A stretch of 56,847 nucleotides of DNA, from positions 1 through 56,847 of the forward strand of contig JAPKMW010000075.1 in the NCBI GenBank assembly GCA_026645575.1, read 5' to 3'. The notes under the pieces are model-generated. The model had not been told where the DNA came from and ran no database searches. It saw nothing but the letters and a program-made list of their open reading frames with translations. The first letter of the stretch is position 1, and every line of letters starts with the position of its first letter. The DNA is from Caldilineaceae bacterium. Its GTDB lineage: Bacteria > Chloroflexota > Anaerolineae > Caldilineales > Caldilineaceae. This document shows, one piece after another, positions 3,356-56,847 of the stretch. The position numbers and the translations under genes are program-made.

Positions 3356-3655
3356 ATGGGAGGGATGATGGCTGAAAATTGTCTATCCTTTGACAAAGTT
3401 GAAGCGTTTCAAACAGCGGTTGCCACCGTTACGCAGACAGTGCGCACGCTGGATGAACTCGCCAGTTGGCTCCATGCCCAGCCATACATAACTGCTGTCA
3501 AACTGGAGGATTATCTCATTAAGACGTATCCACCCCGCCGAGAATTCACCATTGACTTACGCATGGAAGGAGGCACTGTATGTAAAACCATCTTGGCTAT
3601 TACCATAGTGGGGGCTGAACAGTTTAAATTTCAGGAAATGCGTGAAGCACGCTAA
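3356..3655 (+). CDS. Hypothetical small protein
   Basis: A 99-aa protein with no recognised family. It has an alpha-helical N-terminal half and a beta-rich C-terminal half, with no signal peptide or membrane segment. In-frame ATGs lie at 3356, 3365 and 3368; GGGAGGG at 3358-3364 would fit a start at 3368 best, though its spacing is short. Its stop lies 56 bases upstream of the protease gene, so the two may be transcribed together, and it could be a small partner of that protease. This is inference from position only. Confidence 0.5.
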   Translation: MGGMMAENCLSFDKVEAFQTAVATVTQTVRTLDELASWLHAQPYITAVKLEDYLIKTYPPRREFTIDLRMEGGTVCKTILAITIVGAEQFKFQEMREAR

Positions 3656-3710
3656 GGCTGTATACCCCGAAGGCTGTACGATACCTACTGTTCTCGAAAG
3701 GAAACGCACG

Positions 3711-5501
3711 ATGCAACGTGAGCAATTGTTGGAGTCCATTCCATTGGAAGAACTTGTGCAGGAATTACGTGTGCGTGGCAATCCGACACGCGCCGCAGGG
3801 CCGCCCACACAAGCAGATACGGCTGACCCGCTCGCCGATGTTGATACCGCCCAGATTTTGGAAACAGTGATTGCGCGCCAAAAGGTTATTTATGGGGTTG
3901 ACAATCGGCAGGATCTTTTTACCGTAGCCGATCAGGCCATTTTGGACAGTGCTGATTCGGTCGTCAGCCTGTGGCAAGCCGCCGATATTACGGATAACGG
4001 CAATGGCACATCGACTTTACAAACCCAGAATTTTGGGGCGCGGGAAAATCTTTGCGCCACTGAGCGCTTTCGCAATCAGCCGGTCGGCGCCTTTTGCTCC
4101 GGCTTTCTGGTGGCGCCCGATATTGTGGCGACGGCTGGTCATTGCGTCAACGCGGGGAATGTCACCAATACGCGCTTTGTCTTTGGCTACCGCATGACCA
4201 ATGCGGCCAACGCCCAAACCAAGATCAACAACAGCGAGATCTACCGCGGGGCCAGCGTCATTGATCACCGGCTAACCGCTGCTGGCAATGCCGATTGGAC
4301 ACTGATCAGGCTGGATCGCGCCGTGACGAATCACCGCATTACGCCCATCCGCCGCACCGGCGCCATCGGCGCCAACCAGGCGGTCTACGTCATCGGTCAT
4401 CCGGTTGGGTTGCCAATCAAATATGCGCCCGGCGCCAATGTGCGCGATAACACGCCGGTCGAATTTTTTGTGGCGAATTTAGACACCTACGGCGGCAATT
4501 CGGGTTCCCCGGTCTTTAACGCCACTACCCATACCGTGGAAGGGATTCTTGTCCGCGGCGAGACGGACTTTGTGGCGAATGGCTCCTGCATGGTTTCCCT
4601 TGTCTGCTCGACAAACGGCTGCCGTGGCGAGGATTGCACCAAAACTACGCGCTTTGACCATCTGGTGCCCACTTTGTTGCAAGGGCGCTTCACCTTCCAA
4701 CAAGTGGTCAATAACCGCTTCCTGGATGCCCATGAAACTTCTGCCAATGACTTTGCCGCCGTCACCCGCACCGCGCAGAATAACGACTCGCAGCAGTGGC
4801 GGCTCACTCCTGTTGGCGCCGTCTATACCATTCGTCAGGTTGTCAACAACCGCTTCCTGGATGCCCATGAAAGTGCCGACAATGACTTTGCTGTCGTGAC
4901 GCGCACGGCGCAGAACAACGATTCACAGCGCTGGGTGTTGCTCTATCAGAACAATAACCAGTTCACCATCCAGCAGATGAACACAGCGCGCTTTATGGAC
5001 GCCCATGAAAATGAAGCCAACGATTTTGCCGTGGTCACGCGCACCGCGCAGAATAACAATACGCAACGCTGGCGGCTGAATCCATTAGGCGACAATCGGT
5101 ATACGATTCAGCAGGTGAGCAACAATCGCTTCCTGGATGCCCATGAAGATGCGGCCAATGACTTTGCCGCCGTCACCCGCACCGCACAGAATAACGACTC
5201 GCAACGCTGGCAACTCACCTTTGTGGCTGGCGTCTACACCATTCAGCAAGCAAACAACGGTCGCTTCCTGGACGCCCATGAAAATACGACCAACGACTTT
5301 GCCGCCGTCACCCGCACCGCGCAGAATAATGATACCCAACGGTGGATTCTGCGCCCCCTGGGGAACAATCGGTACACGGTGCAGCAAATGAGCAATAGCC
5401 GCTTCCTGGACGCCCATGAAGATGCGGCCAACGACTTTGCCGTTGTTACCCGCCCTGCGCAAAACAACTCGTCGCAGCAGTGGAGACTCACGGCCCTGTA
5501 G
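3711..5501 (+). CDS. Trypsin-like serine protease with six beta-trefoil-type repeats
   Basis: This 596-aa protein has two parts. Residues about 100-330 form a chymotrypsin/V8-type protease domain with the full triad: H144 in TAGHC, D195 in NADWTLIRLD and S264 in GGNSGSP. Residues about 335-596 hold six tandem repeats of about 43 residues, each with RFLDAHE or RFMDAHE, then NDFA-V-TR-AQNN and a Q-x-W motif (SQQW, SQRW, TQRW). The Q-x-W spacing fits ricin-B-like beta-trefoil repeats, so six repeats would make two trefoils and probably bind carbohydrate or another ligand. The ATG at 3711 was chosen because GAAAGGAA lies upstream; a longer ORF exists. No signal peptide is visible, so the protein is cytoplasmic or uses an unusual export route. 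An N-terminal segment of about 100 residues could be a propeptide or an adaptor domain. Confidence 0.9.
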   Translation: MQREQLLESIPLEELVQELRVRGNPTRAAGPPTQADTADPLADVDTAQILETVIARQKVIYGVDNRQDLFTVADQAILDSADSVVSLWQAADITDNGNGTSTLQTQNFGARENLCATERFRNQPVGAFCSGFLVAPDIVATAGHCVNAGNVTNTRFVFGYRMTNAANAQTKINNSEIYRGASVIDHRLTAAGNADWTLIRLDRAVTNHRITPIRRTGAIGANQAVYVIGHPVGLPIKYAPGANVRDNTPVEFFVANLDTYGGNSGSPVFNATTHTVEGILVRGETDFVANGSCMVSLVCSTNGCRGEDCTKTTRFDHLVPTLLQGRFTFQQVVNNRFLDAHETSANDFAAVTRTAQNNDSQQWRLTPVGAVYTIRQVVNNRFLDAHESADNDFAVVTRTAQNNDSQRWVLLYQNNNQFTIQQMNTARFMDAHENEANDFAVVTRTAQNNNTQRWRLNPLGDNRYTIQQVSNNRFLDAHEDAANDFAAVTRTAQNNDSQRWQLTFVAGVYTIQQANNGRFLDAHENTTNDFAAVTRTAQNNDTQRWILRPLGNNRYTVQQMSNSRFLDAHEDAANDFAVVTRPAQNNSSQQWRLTAL

Positions 5502-7007: not shown

Positions 7008-9197
7008 TTATTTCGCTTTTACCGGCGCATCATCAATCGCAACCACACGGAAGCCCAAATCACGATAGCGTTGGGTCGGCAGATCCCAAGAACGGGCGGC
7101 GCAGCGCACAAACTCCATATCGCGAAAGCCGCCGCCGCGCAAGACCCGACGCAGATTGTTCTCGGCCTGGCTTGCCATTTGGGTGACATAGTTTTCATAG
7201 CTGTCCAGCCAGATCGAGGCGGTCCACTCCCAAACATTCCCCGCCATATCCAGTACACCATAAGGGCTGGCGCCGGCAGGATAGCTCCCCACAACGCTGG
7301 TTGAGCCAACTTCCATATCGAAATTGCAACGCTTATGGGTAGGGAGCGCATCACCCCAAGGATAGATCCGCCGATCCGGCCCGCGCGCGGCTTTTTCCCA
7401 CTCCGCCTCTGTGGGCAAGCGCACGCCGGCCCATTCACAGAAGGCGGTGGCATCGCGCCAACTGACATTGACCACCGGGTGCTTTTCTTTCCCCAGGGGA
7501 ATTTCCCCGTTGGTCCAGTGGTTGGGTGAGCGATGACCGGTGGCGTCGATAAAGAGCTTGTATTGTGTATTGGTCACCGGCAGGCGCGCCATGCGAAACT
7601 CCGGCAAGGTGAAACGAAACTGGGGCAGTTCGTCCTCAAAGCAGTGAATATCGACGCGTGGGTCGCTGCCCATGTAAAAGTCGCCGGCTGGGATCGTTAC
7701 CCAATCAAAACCGATGATCGAGTAGTGACGATGGGCATAACTTTGTAATACGTCGGTAATGTCTAGGGGTTGGTTTTCGCGCCGGCGGGATAATTGTCGC
7801 TGTATCTCGGCTTTTTCTTCCATAGCCGACAACAGCGCGCTGTCTTTTGGCGTCTTCACCGCCCCATTTTCTTGTTGTTCAGACAAGGCCACCAGATGAC
7901 GCCCTTGTTGTTCCACCGCCGAAAGCAAGGTATCCAGATCATCTTGCGAGGCCACTGGCGCCGGTTCGGCCACTTTGGCGGTCGGCGGATCAACCGGCGA
8001 TTGGGCAGAAACCTCTGGGGTCGGCGGCGTATAGATCTGATGAGTCGCCACGGCATGGTTAGAACTGGACAAGGCGAAGAGTTGCCCATCGGGTGAGCGC
8101 ATATATAACACGGGCGTAGCCCAGGCCAATGAACGCGCATTATGAAAGTTGATGGCATTGCGCGCTTCCGCCACCGCTGCATCAACCGGCAAGTTATCGG
8201 CCAATGACTCATAAAAGGTATTGGCAAACTCGATGGCGACGGTATCGGCAATCGCATATTGCATGGCTAAGACTGCCGGCACACCGCTGTTGATCAAGGT
8301 GGCTGCTGTGCTGGAAAGGAGATCCTGCGCGCCAGTGCGCGCCCCCTCACAGGCATTGAGTAAGACCAACCGGAGTGATGTGCGTTGGCGCGCCACTAAA
8401 CGCGCGAGTTGAGTCGCATAAAGTCGATGGGCGTTCTGGGCATCATCGGCCAGCACAATAAAGCCTTCATTGCGCTGTTCATCAAAGCCGCCATGTCCGA
8501 CAAAATGAAAGATATGCCAGGGAGTCTCACCGGTGCGCATGGCGCGCTGGAGATCGCGCCAGGTCTGCCCTTCGAGCCAGGTGATCTGCACCAATCCCCG
8601 TTCAACCAGGGCATGAACCGCCTGGTTCACTCGGCGCCGCTCTGTTTCAACATCCAGCCGGGCGTGCATATCCAGCGGATCGGCAATGACACCGAGAATT
8701 TGCAAGGGTGGTTCCACCGCCAACGGTTGGGGCGTTTGGGGCAACTCGGTATAGCGCACAAGTGGCGTATGGGGATCGAGGCAGACAAAATCGCGTTTGC
8801 GGGCATCATAGAGAAATTCCCACGGCAGGGTGGCCAACATCGGCGCGTGCAAGCTCACTTTTAAGCGCACACCGCGATCCTGATGGGCAGCCTCCCGTAA
8901 AGCTTCATAGTAGAGAGTGCGCGTCGTCTCGCCAGCGAGAAGAAATTCAAAAAGCATACGGCCAAAGGTCTGCACCGTTTGTTCATGAACACCTGGCGTA
9001 GCATACAAACCATCGTTTGAACGCAAAATGGCGTTTTCCAACTTGATTAACTCATGCTCCAATTCCGCTGCCGTCAGCGGGAAATGCGCCACCTGGCGAG
9101 CTGTCCTATCAGTGGAACGGGCAACAATCGCGTAGCTTTGCTCACCCACGGGGCTGACTTCAATGACAAAATCTATGTAGGCCGATAAATTATTCAT
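7008..9197 (-). CDS. CHAT-domain (caspase-like) protein fused to FGE-like domain
   Basis: This 729-aa protein combines a CHAT protease domain (about residues 60-375) with a C-terminal formylglycine-generating-enzyme-like (SUMF1) domain (about 497-725). The CHAT dyad is H235 in HFVGHGG and C283 in LLNACEGAR. The FGE-like domain shows VTIPAGDFYMGS, RLPTEAEWEKAARG, YPWGD and DMAGNVWEW. At the FGE active site only one Cys remains (VRCAARSW); the Cys five residues earlier is replaced by Asp, so the domain is probably a binding or sensor module rather than an oxidase. A linker of about 120 residues joins them. An ATG at 9197 is preferred to an upstream one because the family start MNNLSAYIDF follows a GAGGG. 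Related conflict-type systems use CHAT proteases as triggered effectors; the trigger here is unknown. Confidence 0.9.
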   Translation of the reverse strand: MNNLSAYIDFVIEVSPVGEQSYAIVARSTDRTARQVAHFPLTAAELEHELIKLENAILRSNDGLYATPGVHEQTVQTFGRMLFEFLLAGETTRTLYYEALREAAHQDRGVRLKVSLHAPMLATLPWEFLYDARKRDFVCLDPHTPLVRYTELPQTPQPLAVEPPLQILGVIADPLDMHARLDVETERRRVNQAVHALVERGLVQITWLEGQTWRDLQRAMRTGETPWHIFHFVGHGGFDEQRNEGFIVLADDAQNAHRLYATQLARLVARQRTSLRLVLLNACEGARTGAQDLLSSTAATLINSGVPAVLAMQYAIADTVAIEFANTFYESLADNLPVDAAVAEARNAINFHNARSLAWATPVLYMRSPDGQLFALSSSNHAVATHQIYTPPTPEVSAQSPVDPPTAKVAEPAPVASQDDLDTLLSAVEQQGRHLVALSEQQENGAVKTPKDSALLSAMEEKAEIQRQLSRRRENQPLDITDVLQSYAHRHYSIIGFDWVTIPAGDFYMGSDPRVDIHCFEDELPQFRFTLPEFRMARLPVTNTQYKLFIDATGHRSPNHWTNGEIPLGKEKHPVVNVSWRDATAFCEWAGVRLPTEAEWEKAARGPDRRIYPWGDALPTHKRCNFDMEVGSTSVVGSYPAGASPYGVLDMAGNVWEWTASIWLDSYENYVTQMASQAENNLRRVLRGGGFRDMEFVRCAARSWDLPTQRYRDLGFRVVAIDDAPVKAK

Positions 9198-16044: not shown

Positions 16045-16893
16045 TCAACCGCCGGGGACGAACACCACTAACCGAAAACCGATGTTGACGTTACGGACGA
16101 GCGGGGCGTCCCAGTTACGGTTGGCAGAGCGCACGTCGCTGGAATCGCCGAGCCACGAGCCCCCGCGCAACGCCCGCGCTGCGCCCCCTTCCTTATCATT
16201 ATCTACCACATTGGCATAATTCTCATAATTGGCAACCCACTTGGTGGCGGTCCAGTCCCACACATTGCCGGCCATATCGAGCGCGCCATAGGGACTAGCA
16301 CCGGCGGCGTAATTACCCACGGGTCTTGTTTTACCTTCGTTGCTACTAAAATTACAACGATTTTTGTCAGGCGCATCATTGCCCCACGGATACTTACGAC
16401 TATCTGTTCCACGCGCCCCCTTTTCCCATTCAGCCTCGGTTGGCAGACGAATGGGCTGCCCTGTGGCTTGCGCCAGCCAAGCGACATAGGCCGTGGCTTC
16501 ATACCAACTGACGCCAACCACTGGCTGTTGCGGGGTATTCCACTTACTGTCTGTCCAGTAAAGCGGTTTGGTAATTTTCTCACCTGTGCGCCATTGCCAA
16601 CCAGACTTCGTCCAAAACGCCTGGTTGGTATAACCACCACCGTCGACAAAGGCGCGGAATTGGGCGTTCGTTATCGGTGTCTTGCCCAGCCAGAAAGCAT
16701 CAACCGGCATGGTGTGGATTGGCTTTGCACGGTCGTGATCATTCGACCCCATCTGAAAGGGACCAGCCGGTACGTAGACAAAGGGGAAGTCAACGTCAGC
16801 GGCGCGAATTGTTTGCTCTTCACCGGCGGCGGGCGTCCGCTTGGTTACGGTGGCCGGGCGGGAATCTCCCGGTTGGGTCGGCGACGCGTCCAT
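16045..16893 (-). CDS. FGE/SUMF1-like domain, C-terminal half of split CHAT-FGE locus
   Basis: This 282-aa reading frame carries a formylglycine-generating-enzyme-like fold: FVYVPAGPFQMGS, RLPTEAEWEKGARG, KYPWGND, DMAGNVWDW, RALRGGSW. The position that is Cys in the intact paralogue (VRCAARSW) is Asn here (RSANRNW), so no catalytic Cys remains. In the paralogue at 7008 the same domain is fused in frame to CHAT, but here it lies in a different frame from the CHAT ORF directly upstream. An ATG at 16893 could start it, though it has no convincing ribosome site. It may be translated by reinitiation or frameshifting, or be the inactivated end of a fusion gene. I treat it as probably non-independent. 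Confidence 0.7.
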   Translation of the reverse strand: MDASPTQPGDSRPATVTKRTPAAGEEQTIRAADVDFPFVYVPAGPFQMGSNDHDRAKPIHTMPVDAFWLGKTPITNAQFRAFVDGGGYTNQAFWTKSGWQWRTGEKITKPLYWTDSKWNTPQQPVVGVSWYEATAYVAWLAQATGQPIRLPTEAEWEKGARGTDSRKYPWGNDAPDKNRCNFSSNEGKTRPVGNYAAGASPYGALDMAGNVWDWTATKWVANYENYANVVDNDKEGGAARALRGGSWLGDSSDVRSANRNWDAPLVRNVNIGFRLVVFVPGG

Positions 16894-16957
16894 CTTCCGG
16901 GAAGGGGCAACAGACGGTTCCTGCTTTTGTAAATCGCCCCGCCCCTTCCCGGAAGAT
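16892..16957. repeat. 66-bp inverted-repeat element in CHAT-FGE linker
   Basis: Perfect 17-bp arms (16892-16908, 16941-16957; ATCTTCCGGGAAGGGGC) enclose 32 bases. The element lies exactly between the end of the CHAT reading frame and the start of the FGE-like frame. A second small palindrome, GTGGTT-N11-AACCAC, lies at 17001-17023. The 66-bp length equals 22 codons, so this element alone would not shift the frame. Confidence 0.75.
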
Positions 16958-18142
16958 TCACCGCAGCCGCAACCGGTGCGTTTTCCGGCGTTTGCCCGCA
17001 GTGGTTGAGCCTGTCGAAACCACCGAGGCCACCGGCGCCAATTTGAACAGGTGTCCATCGCTCGCCCGCGAATACAAGACCGGCGTTCCCCATTCGACCT
17101 CATGGCCGGCGACAAAGATCGCTTTGCGCGCTTCGGCTAGCGCGGCTTCTACCGGATAGCCGTCGGCCAGGGCGCCGTAGAATTCATGGGCCAGGATAAT
17201 GGCGGCGGCATCGCTAATTTCAAATTGCATGGCGATAATGGCGGGGATGCCTTGTAAGACCAGATGTTGGGCGACGCCAGCAAAGGGATCATTCGTCCCG
17301 ACACGGGCGCCCTCACAGGCATTGAGCAGCGCCAGCCGTAGGGAACGGTGGTCACTAAGCAGCGGTCCCAAATAGTCGCCGCTGACCAAGCGGGCGCGGC
17401 CCCGTTCATCTTCTAGGTAGAGAACGCGCTCCCCCGTGGTTGGGCTAACCCCGCCATGACCGACAAAGTGGAAGATGTGGTAGCGACCCTGACGCAATTG
17501 CCGTTGGAGCGCAGTCAGGGTGGCGTTGGACAGGCGGGTTAATTGGACTTGCCCCTGGGCAATCAGCGGCGCCAGGGCGTCGTTGATCTTGCGCCACTCC
17601 TCGTCAACATTGAGGGTGCTGACATCGCTGGGGTTGGCGATCATCACCAGCACTTGCAACGGTAAGGTGACAGCCAACGGCGTCACCGGACGCGGCTGTT
17701 CCGGGTAGCGCACCAGCGGGGTGGACACGGAATGGCAGAAGAAGCGGCGCAGGCTGGGGTCGTATAGATATTCCCACGGCAGGTCAAGCAGATCAGGCGC
17801 GTCGCCCAGGCGCAGGCGTAAACGCAGGCCCTCCTCATCCGCTTGCAGCAGGCTGCTCCGTAACGCATCGCGCACCTCGCCTTGGAAGACCGCGTTGTAG
17901 AGCCGGGCGCCCAACTCGCGCGCCGCTTTGCCTTCCTCCGTCAAGCTGCGCACGTTACGCCGCGGTCGCCCCATTTTGAGGATGTAGTTTTCTAGCTCGT
18001 GGGCATTGAAGGGCAAGGTAAAATCCACCGTGGCCTGGCCGGCCGGTGAATAGAGAACGCGGGCGCGATAGGTAGCCGGCGCGCCGGTTGTGCTTGGCAA
18101 AGGCAATTTTTCAATCGTCAGGTCAAAATCGAGGTAATTCAT
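16958..18142 (-). CDS. CHAT-domain (caspase-like) protein, N-terminal half of split locus
   Basis: This 394-aa protein parallels the CHAT part of the fusion gene at 7008. It has the N-terminal region, LDLPWEYLYDPSLRRFFCH (compare TLPWEFLYDARKRDFVCL) and a complete dyad, H229 (FHFVGHGG) and C276 (LLNACEGAR). Domain end GTPVLYSRASDGHLFKL also matches the paralogue. After that the frame runs through a palindrome-derived stretch (VVSTGSTTAGK) and stops, while the FGE-like domain continues in another frame. The protease part therefore looks intact and could be made without its sensor domain. The start at 18142 gives MNYLDFDLTI, aligned with the paralogue. No TPR or NTPase partner is nearby. Confidence 0.85.
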   Translation of the reverse strand: MNYLDFDLTIEKLPLPSTTGAPATYRARVLYSPAGQATVDFTLPFNAHELENYILKMGRPRRNVRSLTEEGKAARELGARLYNAVFQGEVRDALRSSLLQADEEGLRLRLRLGDAPDLLDLPWEYLYDPSLRRFFCHSVSTPLVRYPEQPRPVTPLAVTLPLQVLVMIANPSDVSTLNVDEEWRKINDALAPLIAQGQVQLTRLSNATLTALQRQLRQGRYHIFHFVGHGGVSPTTGERVLYLEDERGRARLVSGDYLGPLLSDHRSLRLALLNACEGARVGTNDPFAGVAQHLVLQGIPAIIAMQFEISDAAAIILAHEFYGALADGYPVEAALAEARKAIFVAGHEVEWGTPVLYSRASDGHLFKLAPVASVVSTGSTTAGKRRKTHRLRLR

Positions 18143-18290: not shown

Positions 18291-19079
18291 ATGCCATCCC
18301 CATTTCCTGGCATGGATCCCTATATTGAAGATCCGGAGATTTGGAGTGATTTTCATTTAGATTTAGCGGCTGAAATGCGGACGCGGCTAAATCAGGTGAT
18401 CCAACCAAATTACGTGGCGCGCTTAATCCCGCGTGTAACCTACGAACTGGTTGAAATTGGCAAAACGCACAGGGTCCACCCGGATATTAGCGTGTGGCAA
18501 ACACAACGTACACCAAAACCACATACAGAAACGGCTGTCCTCATCCCACCCGCGCCCAATGTTAGCACAGTCAAACTGGAAGTTCCTTTCCGGTTAGCAA
18601 GTGTGGAAGTGCGCAAGACAGGGACGCTAGAGCTAGTCACTGCCATTGAAATTCTTTCGCCGGTTAATAAACAGCCAAGCCACGATACCTATGGTGAATA
18701 TCAACGGAAGCGCCGCGAGTTGCTTCGTTCAGCGACGCATCTCATGGAAATTGATCTACTACGTGGTGGACAACGGCCACCACTCGAAGAACCAGTGCCG
18801 CCAGCGCCCTACTATGTCACCCTCAGTCGCGGTGATCGGCGCCCCGTTGTGGAAGTATGGCCCATTACACTGCAAGAGCGGTTGCCCATATTGCCCGTAC
18901 CCTTATTAGACCCTGATCCAGACGTCCCACTGAATTTGGCGGCTATCGTTGCCGATGTCTATGAACGCGGCGGCTACGCCACCCTGATCGATTACCACCG
19001 CCCACCACCGCCGCCCAAGCTGTCGGAGGCTGATCTAATTTGGGTGGATGATCTATTGCGCGAACAAGAAATCCGCTGA
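18291..19079 (+). CDS. DUF4058 family protein
   Basis: This 262-aa protein has the DUF4058 signature start MPSPFPGMDPYIEDPEIW. A central block AIEILSPVNK is followed by YQRKRRELLRSATHLMEIDLLRGG, giving an E-x-LSP-x-NK ... KR ... EIDLL pattern that looks like a Uma2/PD-(D/E)XK-type nuclease core; this is inference, not established. AGGAGG precedes the ATG at 18291. It is divergent from the CHAT gene and shares its upstream region. A second member lies at 21893. DUF4058 genes are often repeated in Chloroflexota and cyanobacteria; their role is unknown. Confidence 0.88.
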   Translation: MPSPFPGMDPYIEDPEIWSDFHLDLAAEMRTRLNQVIQPNYVARLIPRVTYELVEIGKTHRVHPDISVWQTQRTPKPHTETAVLIPPAPNVSTVKLEVPFRLASVEVRKTGTLELVTAIEILSPVNKQPSHDTYGEYQRKRRELLRSATHLMEIDLLRGGQRPPLEEPVPPAPYYVTLSRGDRRPVVEVWPITLQERLPILPVPLLDPDPDVPLNLAAIVADVYERGGYATLIDYHRPPPPPKLSEADLIWVDDLLREQEIR

Positions 19080-20607: not shown

Positions 20608-21891
20608 ATGGTTAATATGACGACCACTTTACAATCACCAGAATTCACCAAATTACTCGACCAGTGTGTCCATTGCGGGCTTTGTCTGCCGGCTTGTCCC
20701 ACCTATGCGATTTTTCATACGGAAATGGATAGCCCCCGCGGACGCATTCAACTGATGCACGCGGCCGCCGATGGACGCATTGACACCAGCGGCGCCTTTC
20801 AGGAACATATCGACCTCTGCTTGGGCTGTCGCGCTTGTGAAACAGCTTGCCCTTCCGGCGTACAATATGGTCTGCTCTTTGAAACGGCGCGGGCGGCGAT
20901 TGCGGAGAACCAACCGCAGAGCCGGCAGGAGCGTTGGTTGCGCTGGTTGGCGCTACGCCAGATGCTGCCTCATCGCAGCCGCTTGCAGGTGATGGCGCAG
21001 TTGCTTCGCCTTTACCAAGCGCTCGGCCTCTCGACGCTGGTGCGCAAATTCAAGTTACTACCCAAAAACATGGCGGATATGGAAGCGCTCTTGCCACCGC
21101 TTAACGGGCAAACAATGAGCTATGCGAAATCAGCGCCGGCCATTGGTGAAAAACGGGGCGACGTGGCCTTTCTCTATGGCTGCGTGCAGGACGCCTTTCT
21201 AAGTGGCGTCAATGCGGCGACGGTGCGGGTCTTGCAACAGAATGGCTATGAAGTTCACTTTCCCCACACACAGACCTGTTGTGGCGCGGCGCCGCTTCAT
21301 GTCGGCGAAGGGGCGTTGGCCCGTGATCTTGCTCGCCAGAATGTTGAGGCATTTGGCGACCGCGACTATGTGGCGATCATCAACAATGCCGGCGGCTGTG
21401 GCGCGACACTCAAAGAGTACGGCCATCTCCTCGCCAATGATCCAACTTATGCGGCGAAGGCGAGCGCGTTTGTCGCCAAACTCCAGGACATCAACGAATT
21501 TCTGGCCGGCCATCTCCACAAGCCGCCGACCGGCAAAGTTGCCAAGCGCGTCACCTATGTCGATTCCTGTCACCTGCGCCACGGCCAGAAGGTGGTCAAG
21601 CAGCCGCGCCAATTGCTCAAGGCCATCCCCGGCCTGACGCTGGTTGAACTTCAGCAACCGGATCGCTGTTGCGGCAGCGCCGGCGTCTACAACATCACCC
21701 AAGCGGAGACGGCCAACCAGGTGTTGGATGCCAAGATGGCCGATATTGCTGGCACCCAAGCCGAGATTGTGGTAACGACCAACACGGGTTGTCACATGCA
21801 GATGATCTATGGCGTGCGCAAGGCCGGCTTACAGGCGGAGGTGGTGCATCTGGTGGAGTTGCTGGATCGGTCGTATCAAGCGGGAGGGTAA
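20608..21891 (+). CDS. glcF: Glycolate oxidase iron-sulfur subunit
   Basis: This 427-aa protein is the ferredoxin-like subunit of glycolate oxidase. It has two 4Fe-4S motifs: C20-x2-C23-x2-C26-x3-C30 (CVHCGLCLPACP) and C71-x2-C74-x2-C77-x3-C81 (CLGCRACETACP). Two CCG-type blocks follow (CCGAAPLHVGE and CCGSAGVYNI), typical of the heterodisulfide-reductase-like C-terminus. It passes electrons from the flavin subunit to quinone. The start could be 20608 or 20617; neither has a clear ribosome site. The flavin subunits are encoded by the fusion gene at 23017, with a DUF4058 gene between, all on the same strand and closely spaced, so one operon is likely. Confidence 0.93.
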   Translation: MVNMTTTLQSPEFTKLLDQCVHCGLCLPACPTYAIFHTEMDSPRGRIQLMHAAADGRIDTSGAFQEHIDLCLGCRACETACPSGVQYGLLFETARAAIAENQPQSRQERWLRWLALRQMLPHRSRLQVMAQLLRLYQALGLSTLVRKFKLLPKNMADMEALLPPLNGQTMSYAKSAPAIGEKRGDVAFLYGCVQDAFLSGVNAATVRVLQQNGYEVHFPHTQTCCGAAPLHVGEGALARDLARQNVEAFGDRDYVAIINNAGGCGATLKEYGHLLANDPTYAAKASAFVAKLQDINEFLAGHLHKPPTGKVAKRVTYVDSCHLRHGQKVVKQPRQLLKAIPGLTLVELQQPDRCCGSAGVYNITQAETANQVLDAKMADIAGTQAEIVVTTNTGCHMQMIYGVRKAGLQAEVVHLVELLDRSYQAGG

Positions 21892-21892
21892 A

Positions 21893-22885
21893 ATGCACGC
21901 AGTGAAAGCGCTCAAAAATCAATATTATGGTATTAACGCTCACTTGAACAGCTACTGGCAAAACGATGAGGAATGGAGCGAATTTCATACCAGTTATATT
22001 GTCCACATCAGTGCAGCATTAAAGGCGCAACTACTCCCTTTGGGTTATACAACTGGGAAAGAACGCTCTTTACAGATACGCCGTTTGGATAAGCCTGACA
22101 GTACGCCGCGTTCCGATGTGTCGATCTATGATCTTGATCGAACACGCTCCCAGTCTCGTATTGCACCAGGGCAAAGCGGCGCTTTCGATCTGGTCTTAAC
22201 CTTACCCGAAGTATTAGCCGCCGAAGAAAACCCGGTTGATTATTGGGCAATCGCCATCTACGCTGCCGACCAAACCGGCAAAGAAAAAGGGGAACCGGTG
22301 GCATGGGTTGAAGTGCTATCACCTTCCAACAAACCCGGTGGACAACATGCGCAAGAATACCGCACAAAACGGCGCAAATTATTAGACAGCGGCATTGTTT
22401 TCGTGGAGATCGATTATTTGCATGAATCAGCCCCGACGTTTAATCAACTACCCGCCTACCGTGCGCGTGATCGCGATGGCAACCCTTTGCCCGACGCTCA
22501 TCCCTATCGCATCTTAGTCATCGACCCGCGGCCGATGATCCCCTATGGGAAGCTGTATGTTTATCACTTTGATGTTGATCAACCCATTCCAACGGTAACG
22601 ATTCCCCTTAGTCGTGCGGACCAGATTGACTTTGATTTTGGCACACCCTACGAACGCATGCTCGAAATGGAGCTCTTTACGCTGGAAGCAGTTGACTATA
22701 CGCAGTTACCTATCAAGTTCAATCGTTACACGCCAGTCGATCAACAACGCATTGCCAACCGGATGCTCGCCGTCCTCGAAGCCGCCCAACAGGGCATTGA
22801 CCTGGAAACCGGTCCCTTTCCAACTCAGTCTATTCCTTTGGAAGAAGCACTTGCACGGATTGACGCCTTCCAGGCAACTATCTAG
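21893..22885 (+). CDS. DUF4058 family protein
   Basis: This 330-aa protein is a divergent DUF4058 member. It lacks the PGMDP start of the copy at 18291 but has the shared core WVEVLSPSNK and YRTKRRKLLDSGIVFVEIDYL. The E-x-LSP-x-NK, KR and EID order resembles a Uma2-like PD-(D/E)XK nuclease fold; this is inference. It starts one base after the glcF stop with GGGAGGG just upstream, so it is translated from the glc transcript. Its place inside a glycolate oxidase operon may be chance. Confidence 0.8.
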   Translation: MHAVKALKNQYYGINAHLNSYWQNDEEWSEFHTSYIVHISAALKAQLLPLGYTTGKERSLQIRRLDKPDSTPRSDVSIYDLDRTRSQSRIAPGQSGAFDLVLTLPEVLAAEENPVDYWAIAIYAADQTGKEKGEPVAWVEVLSPSNKPGGQHAQEYRTKRRKLLDSGIVFVEIDYLHESAPTFNQLPAYRARDRDGNPLPDAHPYRILVIDPRPMIPYGKLYVYHFDVDQPIPTVTIPLSRADQIDFDFGTPYERMLEMELFTLEAVDYTQLPIKFNRYTPVDQQRIANRMLAVLEAAQQGIDLETGPFPTQSIPLEEALARIDAFQATI

Positions 22886-55937: not shown

Positions 55938-56741
55938 TCAGCGGCCATTGACCGGCCCCGGACTATAGTACCGTTTTAGCCAGCGGCTGAGACCGTCGAG
56001 ACCGGGGAAGAGAACGCGCTCGGTGATGTTGGCCTGGTCGAGTTTGTCGCGCACTTCCCATTTGAGCGCAGCAGGAATGATAATACGACGGTAGAAGTTG
56101 GGATGCCGACTGATCCACTCATCCAGGCTGGCCGTGGCGCCAGACATGAGCGAGAAGAGGGCATGTTGATTGGTAATGCGATCATCCAACGCTGGCGGTT
56201 CCAGAAAGGCGACAAAAGGTTCCTTGGCCAACTTATCAAATTCGGCTAAGGTTTTGGCAATCCGGTTAAGCATTTCGGTGGTGAAGACGGCGGCATCCTC
56301 TTCTTCGAGAATAGAAGTGAGACAAGGCGGCAGAAATTCACTAGCCCCCACATAGTCAATACACAAGATAATGCCATCGCGGTCAAAGGTGGCGACATCC
56401 TGGGTGGCAAAGTGGAGCGCAACAAAGGGCGAATAGGTCCAGTCGAGCAGGCGCGTGGGCAGGCCATGATGTTGGGCCACAGCCAACCAATTCCAGATCG
56501 AGTCACCAGGGACAGCGCTGCGCTGGGCATAGCGGCGAAAGGTGCGCAACATGGGGCCTTCCAGATTAGCATAGGTCCCGCCCAAGCGCATCAAACTGGT
56601 CTGGAGATCATAGCCAATGTCCGGCAACCCACGATAGACATAGGACGACCGGTAGCGCCGGATCTGCTCCTGCCAGGCATGGGCGTAAAGCTGTTCGTTT
56701 AGTTCATGCCAACTGTTGACGCGAATTTCCTCAACGCTAAT
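55938..56741 (-). CDS. FRG-domain protein
   Basis: This protein of about 267 aa has an FRG domain: SSYVYRGLPDIGYDLQTSL, RYAQRSAVPGDSIWNWLAVA and HHGLPTRLLDWTYSPFVALH. FRG domains are found in suspected toxin or defence proteins; activity is unknown. The start is uncertain. A strong AGGAGGGGG lies where translation should start, but no ATG, GTG or TTG follows at the right distance; an ATT (position 56741) fits. An in-frame ATG at 56837 lies at the window edge. No partner gene can be seen. Confidence 0.75.
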   Translation of the reverse strand: MSVEEIRVNSWHELNEQLYAHAWQEQIRRYRSSYVYRGLPDIGYDLQTSLMRLGGTYANLEGPMLRTFRRYAQRSAVPGDSIWNWLAVAQHHGLPTRLLDWTYSPFVALHFATQDVATFDRDGIILCIDYVGASEFLPPCLTSILEEEDAAVFTTEMLNRIAKTLAEFDKLAKEPFVAFLEPPALDDRITNQHALFSLMSGATASLDEWISRHPNFYRRIIIPAALKWEVRDKLDQANITERVLFPGLDGLSRWLKRYYSPGPVNGR

Positions 56742-56847
56742 GGTGCGTCCCCCTCCTAAAGCAAGAGATAAAGAGATTATATATAGGCTCAAATGACCTC
56801 GAGGTTGATACAATAAGCAAAAAAAGCAAAGGATCAACCAAGGAGAA

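Follow-up and report, generated by a model that had tools for sequence, protein, structure and literature searches.

In passages of PMC8195603 and PMC7159879, FGS domains are described as lectin-fold sensors that occur with EADs and with diversity-generating retroelements (DGRs). Passages of PMC7517822 report variable proteins of cyanobacterial DGRs that have an orthocaspase or CHAT-like domain at the N-terminus and the variable repeat (VR) in a C-type lectin (CLec) domain; they also suggest that, when diversification is taken away, favourable variants might come to be conserved. FGE-sulfatase domains are also reported on cyanobacterial orthocaspases, with 39 proteins in Table 1 of PMC8283722, in the passages that deal with them. 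Here, we analyze a 56,847-nucleotide stretch of DNA from a Caldilineaceae bacterium (assembly GCA_026645575.1, contig JAPKMW010000075.1), hereafter the window. It carries gene 1, a CHAT protease fused to an FGE-like domain (7008..9197), and a second CHAT and FGE-like locus, gene 2; all features of the two genes lie on the minus strand. CHAT- or caspase-CLec DGR targets are already published; what is new is a clade, that of gene 1, in which the pocket rewritten by DGRs in relatives is frozen, beside a diversified paralogue. In the passages of open-access literature that were searched, a frozen CHAT-FGE clade is not described, and a strict query on loss of diversification and purifying selection yielded no papers.

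Gene 1 encodes 729 amino acids, starting with the ATG at 9197. The fusion proposed in the first-pass annotation of this DNA is confirmed by the open reading frame (ORF) and by matches to PF12770 (CHAT; residues 92-364, 8106..8924; E=1.2e-28, 100.8 bits against a cut-off of 24) and PF03781 (FGE-sulfatase; residues 498-719, 7041..7706; E=1.1e-58), the latter domain agreeing in both profile and fold, i.e., an FGE-like domain of C-type-lectin fold. The catalytic dyad was also reported as intact, and it is conserved in an alignment of 121 rows, comprising gene 1 and 120 relatives (the best 120 of 2965): H235, within HFVGHGG (codon 8493..8495), is present in 120 rows with one gap, and C283, within LNACEG (codon 8349..8351), in all 121. 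By profile and His/Cys dyad, gene 1 is therefore classified as a CHAT protease. Both domains are present in 119 of the 120 relatives, and the 15 closest ones have 718-740 amino acids and carry CHAT and FGE each. The best PADLOC match is SAVED_CHAT (E=6.9e-21), covering profile positions 118-278 of 498 only, and at E<=0.001 gene 1 has no Pfam match to a SAVED domain and no match to a TPR domain. The linker between the two domains (residues 365-497, 7707..8105) is mostly of low confidence and variable, and its final ~14 residues (LQSYAHRHYSIIGF) are better conserved within gene 1's clade, as judged by entropy over heptads. The highest 19-residue mean hydrophobicity is 1.37, so that nothing resembles a membrane helix, and the product is probably a single-chain, cytosolic sensor-protease.

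An important correction concerns the FGE-like domain, for which the loss of one of the two active-site cysteines had been annotated. In the phmmer alignment to human FGE, in which position 336 was located via the C336S mutant chain 2aft, D693 stands opposite C336 and a gap stands opposite C341; thus, both cysteines are missing, and an FGE enzyme retaining one of them is ruled out. C699, within RCAARS, is aligned with human C346, which lies outside the catalytic pair (C336, C341). Position 693 is a cysteine in 0/114 rows (the adjacent position 692 in 2/114) and the CHAT dyad is intact, so that neither of the contrary findings named in the first-pass annotation, FGE cysteines kept in relatives or an inactive dyad, was seen in the sampled rows, and FGE chemistry appears unlikely across them, more firmly than had been stated. 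These comparisons give good support to a binding module in place of an FGE enzyme: neither FGE cysteine is left, and an active site would be unlikely to withstand the randomization that the homologous pocket shows in relatives. The near-random pocket also speaks against the possibility that the protease is fused to a different active enzyme (EgtB-, PvdO- or SUMF-like), as do the absent FGE cysteines and the place of CHAT in the protein, which is that of the N-terminal domain of EgtB, a domain that has no counterpart here and in which the EgtB iron ligands sit. We regard such an enzyme as very improbable.

Residues 692-713 (7059..7124), hereafter the pocket segment, are the segment that is hypermutated by DGRs in relatives, a point that the first-pass annotation overlooked. 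We compared gene 1's clade (gene 1 and P0001-P0034, 35 members) to 79 other rows, after dropping seven partial or misaligned rows (P0036, P0057, P0058, P0065, P0094, P0103 and P0105) from the pocket counts; P0065, a fragment outside these counts, likewise carries the frozen pocket. In rows outside the clade, residues between RGGxF and GFR are a mixture of Y, D, N, S, G, F, L, V, H, R and C, i.e., within the set given by NNC codons. The residues K/E/Q/M/W, which NNC cannot encode, make up 6.3% of the pocket in the 79 others (74/1166), compared to 22.0% in the rest of the domain, and 20.6% of the pocket in gene 1's clade.

Reverse transcriptase (RT) matches adjoin FGE matches in several of the first 8 genomes searched. 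Scanning for pairs of template repeat (TR) and VR with mismatches at adenines only, we found strong pairs at 3/5 loci, then at 4/6 loci, and at 7/25 loci (L169, L175, L177, L178, L179, L181 and L182; some of the 25 overlap) of six further genomes. The ten targets from the 5- and 6-locus scans are FGE proteins without CHAT motifs according to a motif scan, and the targets of L169, L177-L179, L181 and L182 were left outside this typing. The locus L175 (genome G395, contig C662), from the class of the Caldilineaceae genome G001 (Chloroflexota), has the order CHAT-FGE (a 754-codon frame), RT (372), accessory gene (136), TR and CHAT-FGE (724). Its TR differs from the two VRs by 15 and 14 mismatches at TR adenines per 70 nt and by 0 mismatches at other bases; therefore, at least two CHAT-FGE proteins are DGR targets. 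The chance that 15 mismatches all fall at adenine in a TR of ~30% A is ~1e-8, an arithmetic estimate with no shuffle control. Two weak pairs, in L132 (8 A and 2 other mismatches) and on the minus strand of L175 (9 A and 2 other), were not counted as DGRs. Nothing was found in the TR/VR scans of L127, L130 and L136, and no pair in those of genomes G042 and G229. The DGR of L135 (G001:C140) combines a single TR with two targets that lie on opposite strands, and it has a matched repeat of 82 nt and a differently built pocket motif (KGGSYYFDAKQATASAA...).

In gene 1's clade, the same segment is nearly invariant. A quick unrooted tree, built from CHAT and non-pocket FGE columns, separates the clade from all other rows by a branch with SH-aLRT 100, so that the definition of the clade is independent of the pocket. 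Its pocket consensus, with variants, is RGGGFRDxEF(V/I)R(C/A)A(A/S)RSWDLxxQ(R/H)Y(R/L)DLGFR, and 11 of 15 pocket positions, chosen as variable in the pooled set, are identical in 35/35 members. For pairs with 60-70% identity elsewhere in the domain, pocket identity has a median of 0.87 in the clade (397 pairs) versus 0.13 in the others (885 pairs); at 80-90% identity, the medians are 1.00 (34 pairs) versus 0.13 (63 pairs). Mean entropy in the clade is lower for the pocket (0.27 bits) than for the remainder of the domain (0.87 bits; p=0.0041), whereas in the others it is higher for the pocket (3.31 bits) than for the remainder (1.40 bits; p=5.3e-10). Identity at 11 positions throughout the clade would also be expected if the frozen pocket contacted a constant intracellular partner, e.g., a housekeeping subunit or the CHAT domain of the same protein, and gene 1 encoded a regulatory protease rather than a defence receptor; among those of the 40 scanned window ORFs that have a match, genes of ordinary metabolism or regulation prevail, which suits this explanation. 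Conversely, the linker is of low confidence and relatives with a similar CHAT domain have a near-random pocket, suggesting that CHAT itself requires no fixed pocket. We consider a constant partner unlikely.

A second frozen clade with a different pocket (FFNFxxQVRCAYRxxxEP) consists of P0043, P0047, P0048, P0051, P0056 and L137, and those of its rows that were listed form part of the 79 others. In the genome of L137 (G042), 8.8 Mb were scanned with no match to RVT_1. Yet another pocket, CYANPxG(F/Y)ARCACRFRL, is common to four FGE-like ORFs (L030, L037, L041 and L044; 261-295 codons), so that frozen pockets may also occur outside CHAT fusions. Searched at E<=1e-125, the 46 genomes from the family to which G001 belongs (the same 46 represent its order) yielded no orthologues of gene 1's frozen clade; in the class, 11/396 genomes match at E<=1e-110, at 50-53% identity. 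Among 72,556 plasmid records, 77 match and none covers 80% of the query.

A frozen pocket can have two histories. In one, DGRs never acted on the clade; the fixed pocket is then the ancestral state, and other branches took up DGRs later. The WD-x-P piece of the pocket, which an alignment finds in EgtB too, is consistent with this scenario, and the root of the tree was not inferred. The position of the clade points the other way: it is nested in a 72-row set (SH-aLRT 100; quick non-pocket tree), the adjoining rows have divergent pockets (P0037 and P0086 at SH-aLRT 82, a 35-row set at 95), and the second frozen clade sits elsewhere in the tree. We therefore think it rather improbable that the fixed state is ancestral. 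Loss of diversification appears likelier on these comparisons, although not proven, because the tree is quick and unrooted. A tentative extension, which we think less likely than not, is that a pocket found by hypermutation was kept, cut off from the retroelement and held by purifying selection, leaving a fixed and a diversifying receptor in one genome. If true, this would be a bacterial parallel to germline-encoded immune receptors beside somatically diversified ones.

The two regimes can be compared within the window using gene 2. A second locus of the same type had been annotated at a distance of 7 kb, and it is present, 6.8 kb away, but it is not one fusion ORF: the CHAT ORF (16958..18142, 394 amino acids; PF12770 E=7.7e-31) and the FGE-like ORF (16045..17115, 356 amino acids; PF03781 E=3.5e-61) are in different frames, the gene being split within the linker. 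Near the frame break, a 19-nt stretch (TTTCGACAGGCTCAACCAC, 17001..17019) is the only exact copy in the window; it may be REP-like. The best 9 relatives of gene 2 (from the best 120 of 2860) comprise 6 CHAT-FGE and 3 CHAT-only proteins according to precomputed Pfam; thus, gene 2 may have been broken, may really be two genes, or may only look split through an assembly error. Its pocket segment (16081..16152) has DGR-type codons, with C as the third base in 15/19, compared to 47/185 in the rest of the domain (p=6.2e-6). The six proven DGR targets that were examined are alike (12 to 15/19, p from 3.3e-5 to 0.014). For gene 1, the numbers are 4/18 and 71/185 (p=0.21); thus, there is no NNC signature.

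Compared to TRs of other genomes, 7/8 of which were readable, gene 2 differs at a fraction of 0.59-0.62 of the adenines and 0.16-0.32 of the remaining bases, and gene 1 at 0.69-0.80 and 0.38-0.44, respectively; the mismatches of gene 1 are also uneven because adenines mark pocket positions. Close relatives show the same distinction at the protein level. Gene 1 and P0014 agree at 14/15 pocket positions and at 144/186 positions in the rest of the domain. Gene 2 agrees with the CHAT-FGE fusion P0128 at 3/17 and 163/208 (0.78), respectively (Fisher p=1.9e-5 against gene 1/P0014), with the fusion P0123 at 3/17 and 0.80 (p=1.9e-5), and with P0124 at 6/17 and 0.70 (p=0.00095). Of the 18 gene 2 relatives taken, P0122 and P0126 are uninformative (distant FGE, 0.38 in the rest of the domain), and P0135, P0148 and P0165 have no aligned pocket. 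P0014 and P0128 are probably on one contig, since both records have the same organism name and a longest contig of 499,696. Gene 2 was placed in the tree by its CHAT ORF alone, where its long branch joined another long one, and this placement is not trusted. No TR for either gene was found within the 56.8-kb window, nor was there a match below E=1 to an RT or accessory gene. A DGR cassette inside the window was likewise considered and not found, and Pfam matches of 40 window ORFs, a part of the total, include no reverse transcriptase.

The reading that we favour, and consider moderately probable, is that gene 1 encodes a sensor-protease with one fixed ligand, in a family otherwise diversified by DGRs, probably acting in defence or cell death. 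The C-terminal FGE-like domain would be a C-type-lectin-fold receptor; binding of a ligand would release or order the CHAT protease, which, once freed, would cleave one or more cell proteins, most likely resulting in a defence or self-killing response. Two regimes would exist in the family: many relatives have a receptor pocket marked by DGR rewriting, and gene 1's clade has a frozen one, suggesting that this receptor reads one constant ligand, e.g., a conserved part of an invader or a damage signal. We infer that the pocket binds a ligand and that binding switches the protease, and likewise the role in defence or death put forward in the first-pass annotation, in favour of which the EADs of some relatives also count. 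A trigger-sensor role for the FGE-like domain fits the architecture and, by analogy, the published FGS/CLec conflict systems as they appear in passages of PMC8195603, PMC10907252 and PMC7517822.

It should be noted that several observations weigh against this sensor-protease reading. The conservation of the pocket could be structural, and since the 15 positions were picked as variable, the pocket figure for the others, unlike that for the clade, is partly a matter of choice. Six further CHAT-FGE genes without a proven TR gave mixed results, with C as the third base in 6 to 13/19 pocket codons (p from 0.0011 to 0.79). In the predicted structure of gene 1, pLDDT is <50 at residues 379-420 and 437-479 and pTM is 0.56; with so low a confidence in the linker, the coupling of sensor and protease is not captured by the model. 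There is no EAD match in gene 1 at E<=0.001. The immediate neighbours of gene 1 are xseA, a GNAT and an ORF without assignment; this is no defence island.

Other genes of the window include a trypsin-like protease with ricin-type beta-trefoil repeats (3642-5501, plus strand), 1.5 kb from gene 1, which is a second protease-plus-lectin-fold protein and has a weak PADLOC match to LmuA (E=0.00074). Two DUF4058 proteins (18291-19079 and 21809-22885, plus strand) lie 2.7 kb apart, and an FRG-domain protein (55938-56846, minus strand) runs off the window end.

Among known systems, the FGS-domain conflict systems with EADs resemble gene 1, on the evidence of passages of PMC8195603 and PMC7159879, in having an FGE/FGS lectin-fold sensor C-terminal to effectors. 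Relatives of gene 1 carry EADs as well: PF19955, PF19956 or PF19960, which are EAD1, EAD2 and EAD7 by their names in four examples scanned, occur in 28 of the best 120 relatives (of 2965), all 28 outside gene 1's clade. Gene 1 differs from these systems in having neither an EAD nor an NTPase domain. The cyanobacterial orthocaspases of PMC8283722 likewise combine a caspase-like protease with an FGE-type accessory domain; however, theirs is a peptidase C14, not CHAT, and its passages contain no DGR analysis. Craspase TPR-CHAT (Csx29) and SAVED-CHAT have the CHAT fold and dyad in common with gene 1, whereas the sensor of gene 1 is of the CLec fold, not a CRISPR effector or SAVED domain. With Treponema denticola variable protein 1, TvpA (2y3c), the match is restricted to the FGE-like domain, and the pocket of gene 1, unlike that of a variable protein, is frozen. 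DGR targets of Thiohalocapsa PB-PSB1, for example, that of DGR 2 with CHAT and TIR, are described in passages of PMC10907252 as combining CHAT with CLec, with a proposed role as antigen sensors; gene 1, by comparison, has no TIR and its pocket is not diversified.

Each copy of a DGR-diversified sensor may bind something else, which makes such sensors hard to study. Conversely, a clade whose pocket stays the same despite wide divergence should have a single ligand, and is therefore a place to learn what sensor-proteases detect and whether binding activates CHAT. A close parallel is with the cyanobacterial DGR proteins which, in passages of PMC7517822, have an N-terminal caspase/CHAT-like domain, a C-terminal CLec domain with the VR and paralogues away from the RT, like the CHAT-FGE family. 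The relatives analyzed here differ in being named Caldilineaceae/Chloroflexi and in including a 35-member frozen-pocket clade tested at matched divergence; this clade would provide sequence evidence for an outcome that the same passages only suggested, i.e., that diversified genes can become conserved.
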